39,599 bases of DNA, from the NCBI GenBank assembly GCA_900316205.1, contig ONBX01000018.1:1-39599 (forward strand). The letters are read 5' to 3'. Position 1 is the first letter of the stretch. Each line of letters begins with the position of its first letter. Positions 8,837 to 36,693 of this stretch are shown here, piece after piece. The DNA is from an uncultured Eubacteriales bacterium (GTDB taxonomy: Bacteria > Bacillota > Clostridia > Oscillospirales > Oscillospiraceae). Below the pieces are notes generated by a model. That model was not told the origin of the DNA and did not search any database. It saw only the letters and a list, made by a program, of their open reading frames with translations. The position numbers and the translations under genes were made by a program.

Positions 8837-9030
8837 CATAGCTCCCCTGAGCAAGGGGAGCTGTCGAGCGCAGCGAGACTGAGGGCTTGTCACCCGTGAC
8901 ACCCCTTCGTCTCCTTCAGGGGCTTCTCCCTTCAGGCAAGGGGGCCAATACGGAAGAGGAGACCCCTCAGTCATCCGGCGGAGCGTTACACGCCGGATGA
9001 CAGCTCCCCTTAGGCAGGGGAGCCTATAAG
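8837..9030. repeat. Palindromic intergenic repeat block
   Basis: This gap holds several GC-rich palindromes: CTCCCC..GGGGAG stems near 8841-8863 and 9002-9023, and GTCATCCGGCG (8970-8980) with CGCCGGATGAC (8991-9001) around a 10-base loop. The last stem recurs at 33498-33528 with a different loop. No coding sequence is credible here. Confidence 0.7.
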
Positions 9031-11820: not shown

Positions 11821-11883
11821 AGCACAACGAAAAAGAAGCTTTCTCCCATGCAGGACACAAGAAGAACGGAAAGCTTTGACTGG

Positions 11884-12028
11884 AATTCAAATCGTTTTTG
11901 AGGCTGCTATGCCGCCTCAAAAACACCAAGTTTTGCGAGGCCTCGCGTCGACCAAACACGGCGTGTTACGCTCCGCCGCGTGCGATAAACGCGTGTTCTT
12001 GCCTGCGAAATCAACATTTCGCAGGCAG
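11884..12028. repeat. Structured intergenic element, copy A
   Basis: Read on the plus strand: hairpin GTTTTTGAGGC (11894-11904) / GCCTCAAAAAC (11914-11924) with 9-base loop TGCTATGCC; GCGAGGCCTCGC (11935-11946); CGACCAAA; CGGCG (11959-11963) / CGCCG (11974-11978); GCGATAAACGCG; and a final 12-bp hairpin 12000-12011 / 12016-12027. The same order of parts, with changed but still complementary stems, occurs at 36291-36441. It may be an RNA or a non-coding repeat; the direction of function is unknown. This accounts for most of the gap between spoIIQ and eno. Confidence 0.75.
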
Positions 12029-12031
12029 CGA

Positions 12032-12063
12032 AAAAAAGAACCTCCCGCAGGAGGTTCTTTTTT
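12032..12063 (-). terminator. Enolase terminator
   Basis: AAAAAAGAACCTCC (12032-12045), loop CGCA, GGAGGTTCTTTTTT (12050-12063). Symmetric; on the minus strand it ends in a T-run, 18 bases after the eno stop. Confidence 0.88.
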
Positions 12064-36008: not shown

Positions 36009-36230
36009 TTACTGCACTTCTATCATTTCCGCATCTGCCTTGCGCAGGCTCAGCTCGTAGTTGCGGACGTTGACCTCGATGGGATCGCCCAGAGGCGCAA
36101 GCTTGCGGACATAGACCTCAACGCCCTTGGTGATGCCCATATCCATGATGCGGCGCTTGACGGCGCCCTCGCCGTGGAGCTTGACGACCTTGGCGGTCTC
36201 GCCCACTTTCACATCTCGCAGTGTTTTCAT
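36009..36230 (-). CDS. feoA: FeoA-domain protein, feoB-proximal
   Basis: A 73-residue SH3-like cytosolic partner of FeoB. Sequence features: LRDVKVGETAKVVKLHGEGAVKRRIMDMGITKGVEVYVRK and APLGDPIEVNVRNYELSLRKADAEMIEV, the classic FeoA pattern (two basic segments, the MDMGITKG turn, and the LRK..A..I end). Start at ATG 36230: AAGGAG lies 7 bases upstream, while the in-frame ATG 36236 is only one base from it. It directly precedes feoB; copy B of the structured element lies just upstream, between the two feoA genes. Confidence 0.92.
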   Translation of the reverse strand: MKTLRDVKVGETAKVVKLHGEGAVKRRIMDMGITKGVEVYVRKLAPLGDPIEVNVRNYELSLRKADAEMIEVQ

Positions 36231-36290
36231 CCTCATTCTCCTTTATTGCAATTTTTGAAGACAGTTGAAGCTTACCCGCATACTCTAGAA

Positions 36291-36442
36291 TCAATTCAAT
36301 CGTTTCTGCTGTAGCTCTGCCACAGCAGAAACACCCTGAGGCGAGCAAGCGAGCCCTCGCGCCGACCAAGCGCGGCGCGTCTCCCGTGCGCCGCGCGCGA
36401 TAAGCGCGAGCTTTACGATTGCAAAACATGTTTTGCAATCGG
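36291..36442. repeat. Structured intergenic element, copy B
   Basis: Read on the plus strand: hairpin GTTTCTGCTGT (36302-36312) / ACAGCAGAAAC (36322-36332) with 9-base loop AGCTCTGCC; GCGAG (36341-36345); CTCGCG (36356-36361) / CGCGAG (36405-36410); CGACCAA; GCGCGGCG (36370-36377) / CGCCGCGC (36389-36396); GCGATAA; then CGATTGCAAAAC (36416-36427) / GTTTTGCAATCG (36430-36441). Same parts and order as 11884-12028, with stems changed on both sides. Here it sits inside the feo operon, between feoA genes. Confidence 0.75.
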
Positions 36443-36444
36443 TG

Positions 36445-36657
36445 TTAGACCATGATTTTTCCGGCCATCTCCCGGCTGATGGCCACCCGGGATTCCTTGA
36501 CCTTCACGATCAGGTTTCCGCCGATGGTGTTCAGCACGGTGACCGCGCTCCCCGCGACAAAGCCCATGTCCTCCAGGTGCTTTTTCATCTCGGGGCTGCC
36601 GCCGACGCGCTGGATGATGTTTTCCTCTCCGGTGTTTGCCAGAAACAGCGGCATCAT
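36445..36657 (-). CDS. feoA: FeoA-domain protein, promoter-proximal
   Basis: A second FeoA homologue of 70 residues (MMPLFLANTGEENIIQRVGGS, KKHLEDMGFVAGSAVTVL, VKESRVAISREMAGKIMV). It is clearly different from the other FeoA, and such pairs are common in clostridial feo operons; the two may form a heteromeric regulator of FeoB. Start at ATG 36657, preceded by GGAGGGG; a second ATG at 36654 is possible. First gene of the feo operon, downstream of a promoter with three operator-like repeats. Confidence 0.9.
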   Translation of the reverse strand: MMPLFLANTGEENIIQRVGGSPEMKKHLEDMGFVAGSAVTVLNTIGGNLIVKVKESRVAISREMAGKIMV

Positions 36658-36693
36658 CGCGTCCCCTCCTTTCCTGCCGACCCGCATCGTTCA

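Follow-up and report, generated by a model that had tools for sequence, protein, structure and literature searches.

Copies A and B of a structured intergenic repeat, located in a stretch of 39,599 nucleotides that is called the window below, are MITE-like insertions of a non-autonomous element of about 190-200 bp found in Oscillospirales. The usual view of MITEs is that of dead DNA enclosed by two ends. In this family, however, the interior is better preserved than the ends and, unusually for passenger DNA of this sort, retains an RNA-like fold although its sequence changes; the distinctive trait of the copies is a core that is kept as a fold, partly as RNA, and that is common to elements with different ends. 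The account as a whole, in which MITE-like elements are mobilised in trans and carry a core selected as structure, is considered highly probable. The combination of a compensated core, strand-specific selection on the first hairpin and unlike ends makes the dependence of a bacterial MITE on an RNA fold testable, and there is now a covariance model with which the family can be detected throughout a whole order of widespread gut bacteria.

Organisation of the element

Each element is made up of a left end module, a structured core containing H1, P2 and P3, and a right end hairpin, H4, the right arm of which is the right inverted repeat (Table 1). The parts follow one another in the same order in both copies: first an 11-bp hairpin whose 9-base loop ends in GCC, next GCGAG and CTCGC, followed by CGACCAA, by an inner hairpin with GCGATAA after it, by a right-hand arm and by a perfect last hairpin of 12 bp in copy A and 11 bp in copy B. 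The core occupies positions 11894-12027 in copy A and 36302-36441 in copy B, and the whole element extends over about 11838-12028 and roughly 36252-36444, respectively. It is longer than a previous reading of the sequence alone had stated, because about 55 bp located 5' of the first hairpin belong to the element. When folded as the plus strand, both copies surpassed their dinucleotide shuffles (z -5.55 for copy A and -5.62 for copy B), none of the 200 shuffles being as good. The structured element recognised in two places by the sequence-only reading, with its shared order of parts, is upheld. Its description of the stems as compensated holds, but it overstated the divergence of the first stems, which differ in only 4 of 11 pairs (all compensated); the last stems differ more.

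The second hairpin of copy A is damaged, a part kept by other copies being missing. In parallel, a second dispersed hairpin repeat (approximately CGGCGGAGCGTAACACGCCG, often in a CTCCCC..GGGGAG context) was found to match copy A in its inner hairpin, which gives the impression that modules of this kind have been swapped between repeat families. This second repeat was observed at window positions 8976-8995 on the minus strand and at six other loci (L014, L017, L018, L019, L024 and L025).

Table 1. Features of copies A and B in the window
Feature	Positions	Strand	Basis
Copy A, probable left target-site duplication (CGAAAAAGAA)	11828..11837	+	By eye from empty-site alignment; automatic test without detection
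Copy A, 5' module, degenerate left end	11838..11893	+	Missing at the same site in G021 and G069
Copy A, first hairpin H1	11894..11924	+	Folding, covariation
Copy A, stem P3: CTCGCGT, internal loop CGACCAA/GCGATAA, inner hairpin, right arm ACGCGTG	11942..11995	+	Fold, covariation
Copy A, last hairpin H4, right arm = right inverted end	12000..12027	+	Folding
Copy A, probable right target-site duplication (CGAAAAAAAGAA)	12029..12040	+	By eye from empty-site alignment
Copy B, 5' module, approximate left end	36252..36301	+	Missing at the same site in 10/12 relatives
Copy B, first hairpin H1	36302..36332	+	Folding, alignment
Copy B, hairpin P2 (GGC-GA-GC..GC-GA-GCC, tandem GA mismatches)	36340..36355	+	Fold, covariation
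Copy B, stem P3 with internal loop CGACCAA/GCGATAA and inner hairpin	36356..36410	+	Fold, covariation
Copy B, last hairpin H4, 3 bases before the upstream feoA stop codon	36416..36441	+	Folding

Family size, insertion sites and transposon ends

The element had been taken to exist in two copies, but the genome from which the window comes (2.78 Mb) contains 18 strong ones. Further copies were detected in it by blast with copy A; an alignment of 13 copies from this genome (A2) served to build the covariance model R1, which gave 18 matches at E < 1e-8 when the best 150 of 1262 first-look candidates were scored. With up to 32 candidates scored, matches reaching E 0.001 or better occur in at least 55 of the 102 genomes of the genus, own genome counted. 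Copies per genome range from 1 to 62, the 62 matches of G007 and 44 of G018 having been obtained with a higher cap and laxer filters. With up to 8 candidates scored, matches at E 1e-4 were found in at least 42 of 400 genomes and 17 of 106 genera of an even sample of the family, and in at least 21 of 394 genomes, 14 of 169 genera and seven families, its own included, of an even sample of the order that overlaps with the former. An exact pattern scan of named genomes returned at least 115 stretches. Among the matches listed (80 titles) were metagenome-assembled genomes (MAGs) of Oscillospiraceae, Ruminococcaceae, Clostridia, Clostridiales or Eubacteriales, one Oscillibacter and one Candidatus Apopatocola equi, many of them from ruminant guts. 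Many weak matches of the model on the reverse strand correspond to the palindromic first hairpin read in reverse. Comparison of copy B with phage and plasmid sets by blastn gave no match.

Several variants were also observed. The first hairpin is retained, together with a different middle part, in distant relatives from other genera (L325, L326, L327, L328, L329, L330 and L338), and a further subtype displays a GTTCAGAGGGG-like left module (L043, L092, L097, L106, L117, L121, L128 and L135). Neighbouring model matches in tandem were present at G194:C37:2915-3191 and G023:C21:52536-52766.

The region of copy A is missing from two relatives, G021 (flanks 94-96% matching) and G069 (86-96%). Site B is empty in 10 of the 12 relatives examined, where a gap of 7-25 bp is found against about 208 bp. 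It is filled in G041, with an element that resembles copy B, and in G071, with an element whose first hairpin is quite different; given this unlike occupant, site B may be an insertion hot spot. As G041 is filled at this site and the closer relative G021 is empty, loss or repeated insertion must be assumed.

Direct repeats scoring at least 10 flank 16 of 139 distinct copies versus 1.4% of mismatched flank pairs; a clear direct repeat was absent in the other 123 copies, and copies A and B also failed this automatic test. In the 16 best cases the repeats are 10-41 bp long, and in 10 of these cases 54-56 bp lie between the left repeat and the core. Clear examples include L136 (15 bp), L109 (11 bp) and L262 (10 bp). 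Type I copies have direct repeats of 10-20 bp without hairpin, and in copies of the G018 type, such as L277 (26 bp) and L093 (29 bp), an entire terminator-like hairpin is doubled. Inverted ends, formed by AGYCGATTGCGAAA at the left and the complementary sequence at the right, lie 168-229 bp apart in the better copies; an end-like motif was found in 33 distinct left flanks, and the inverted ends are weak in copies A and B. The exact end motif was absent from the own genome and was found in 14 of the 102 genus genomes, at 22 places against 1 for a control pattern. Two end motifs also stand head to head within 36 bp at G096:C4:94738-94773, perhaps a remnant consisting of ends alone. The family is thus short, devoid of a coding gene and dispersed in many copies, with terminal inverted repeats, target-site duplication (in copy A by eye) and presence or absence at the same site, as in MITEs. 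One of the two identities suggested from the sequence, a non-autonomous palindromic mobile repeat, is in this way supported by the dispersed copies, the empty sites in relatives, the direct repeats and the inverted ends.

Gene context was determined with a home-made codon-scored gene caller, the results of which replaced an earlier table from a crude ORF caller. None of 109 copies overlaps a called gene. Regarding orientation, 49 of 103 classified copies are antisense to both neighbours, 35 are sense to both, and 10 and 9 are mixed; the cruder caller gave 33, 26, 20 and 25 among 104 copies, a likewise mixed picture. When the downstream gene is on the minus strand, the end of H4 lies at most 10 nt from its stop codon in 36 of 59 cases, and when it is on the plus strand its start is 14-31 nt away in 24 of 44. 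Such spacing is the expected residue of target duplication at gene borders and not riboswitch placement; the latter, a fixed orientation upstream of a gene, was rejected on account of the mixed orientation. Copy B itself sits between the two feoA genes of a minus-strand feo operon, two consecutive FeoA-domain genes being found upstream of feoB at window positions 36009-36687 on the minus strand.

A connection with a transposon family was observed for the G018 subtype. Its left end, TGTAGACAAAG, is present at a fixed place in 12 of 16 copies versus 6% of 720 control windows. This motif also forms the left end of IS1182-family elements, where it follows a terminator-like hairpin, in 6 of 30 loci, as well as that of an IS1182 element resident in G018. 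The G018 subtype itself is likewise located behind terminators. IS1182 elements sit here behind terminator-like hairpins, and a hairpin of about 37 bp is present in duplicate around the autonomous locus L299, hairpin duplication being seen as well in the G018-type copies L276, L277 and L093. IS1182 elements produce direct repeats of up to 60 bp. The link with IS1182 is good for the G018 subtype, with respect to the left end; that the subtype of the window uses the same or a related enzyme is a guess. At E 1e-20 no IS1182 transposase was found in the own genome and no IS1182 match in G007, the richest genome, both of which are incomplete MAGs. Across the genus, IS1182 is present in 22 of 55 carriers of the element and in 13 of 47 non-carriers, without association (Fisher p 0.21). 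The core gave no match inside the 30 autonomous IS1182 loci, the search for a transposase of the window's own subtype was negative, and no autonomous element with type I ends was found. Two long end pairs were noted (L090 and L196). The core is common to elements with unlike ends, as CGATTGCGAAA is found in 10 of 20 copies and TGTAGACAAAG in 1 of 20 in G007, versus 0 and 12 of 16 in G018.

Fold and strand-specific selection

The fold is real and the core is under selection as structure. Among the 13 copies of the own genome, whose alignment was not fitted to the model, RNAalifold yielded 42 pairs, 24 of which show at least one compensated change. In 83 copies from named genomes, retrieved with an exact pattern in which P2 and P3 are partly fixed, and aligned by fitting to the model, 96.4% of the cells pair, 37 of the 42 pairs change on both sides, and none of 500 shuffles reaches the observed covariation in any of five measures. 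Unpaired stretches such as GACCAA and GCGATAA are also conserved. Selection on structure, deduced initially from two copies, is thereby borne out, for the first hairpin also as RNA of the window's plus strand. The copies may in addition represent an undescribed RNA class, the other identity suggested from the sequence, a check against Rfam having provided no relevant match: its covariance models gave no hit at the gathering score in the window, and in the loci of nine copies only two unrelated matches at E up to 5, both outside the element.

The strand on which selection acts can be recognised because any G-U pair turns into an A-C clash when the opposite strand is read. Of 276 rows 57 were dropped, and changes were counted along a tree with 197 distinct rows. 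H1 underwent 60 changes to or from G-U against 9 of the A-C kind (p 2e-10), and P2 and P3 together 35 against 21, a preference that is not significant (p 0.08), both p values being optimistic because the tree was derived from few sites. The excess in H1 implies selection on the plus-strand transcript, that is, on H1 as RNA. H4 serves as an inner control, with 26 G-U and 28 A-C changes and 224 direct Watson-Crick exchanges, many more than intermediates; this lack of strand specificity fits a DNA end. A first run of the test had given nearly identical counts, and its outcome was upheld on repetition with filters that do not favour G-U.

A switch had also been hinted at, in which CTCGC would pair either with the upstream GCGAG or with the downstream arm. 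Both window copies are indeed able to form both pairings. Among 117 distinct copies that were not chosen by pattern, the arm departs from CTCGC in 27; P3 is still paired in 25 of these and the alternative in 1, in a count that took mostly paired copies and hence leans towards P3. The upstream GCGAG hardly varies and shows no covariation with the CTCGC arm, so that the alternative pairing is a by-product of the sequence, and the switch was rejected.

Proposed mechanism, rival explanations and known systems

A transposase supplied in trans would insert the elements between genes, in most cases directly abutting a stop codon or immediately 5' of a ribosome-binding site, and the target would be duplicated. 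The element would probably be transcribed along with its surroundings, as suggested by a core selected as structure and by H1 selected as plus-strand RNA. The folded RNA might then serve the element or soften its effect on the host mRNA, for instance as a processing or protection site. The simplest reading, by analogy with Correia elements and ERIC, would be such a site in read-through transcripts. A bolder proposal, put forward tentatively and rather unlikely, is that the core is a selfish structured RNA domain hitch-hiking on the ends of several transposon lineages. The RNA could steer the transposase, mark transcripts for processing or hide the insertion from the host; as it would work for the element, the fold would be kept while the DNA ends are exchanged.

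The core shared by elements with unlike ends in G007 and G018 and the selection of H1 as RNA would suit an independent small RNA gene, multi-copy by chance and carried by mobile ends of several kinds. This is nevertheless improbable, as the core is without a demonstrated promoter or terminator of its own, one intergenic copy lies within the feo operon on the opposite strand, and the distribution is patchy, with 47 of 102 genus genomes lacking a match. A similarly low probability is given to pure DNA palindromes devoid of RNA function, whose perfect pairing would be maintained by template switching or by enzymes that recognise hairpins. H4, with its balanced changes (26:28) and 224 direct exchanges, accords with this reading, and IS1272, an IS1182-family element, targets hairpins according to PMC4923244; yet the bias of H1 towards G-U over A-C (60:9) and the conservation of the unpaired GACCAA and GCGATAA argue against it.

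A cis-regulatory RNA, either a riboswitch or a leader, that switches between the two CTCGC pairings is very unlikely. Both pairings are possible in both window copies, some copies lie in 5' leaders before the ribosome-binding site (the 24 of 44 with a start 14-31 nt away), and certain positions are shared by different species, for instance ahead of apparent infB and ftsE, but orientation to genes is mixed, the alternative pairing is retained in 1 of 27 changed-arm copies versus 25 of 27 for P3, and the sites are empty in relatives. Least plausible of all is a retrotransposed, SINE-like RNA, a scenario that would account for direct repeats varying from 10 to 41 bp and for RNA-level selection on H1. 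It is at odds with the inverted ends, with the subtype that has the ends of a DNA-transposon family and with the duplication of a hairpin of about 37 bp at the IS1182 locus L299, from which it follows that long variable repeats are possible without reverse transcription.

The repeat is not described in the literature searched, a scope outside which lie supplements, preprints, most subscription journals and PMC8040213, a study on human-microbiome candidate RNAs. The G018 subtype of the MITE-like element resembles the IS1182 family (IS1272 with its transposon TnSha1) in its association with hairpins and terminators and in the left end motif. IS1272 is reported to insert at hairpins and terminators without target duplication and with partial deletion of the hairpin (PMC4923244); unlike it, the element has no transposase and whole hairpins are duplicated. 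Small modular intergenic repeats with stable folds are also known in pneumococci as BOX, RUP and SPRITE, which are thought to be mobilised by a resident insertion sequence (PMC3049150, PMC10969869). The present family shares these traits and differs in sequence and hosts, as well as by its covariation, of which no report for them was found in PMC3049150. Like REP and BIME, it is composed of multi-copy intergenic palindromes, but REPs measure 20-40 bp (PMC3733652), against about 190-200 bp for the present elements, which also carry inverted ends and direct repeats. Finally, Correia elements and ERIC are MITE-like as well, and their transcripts undergo cleavage by RNase III or RNase E (PMC3049150); these repeats, likened here by description, provide the model for the role that the RNA fold may play.
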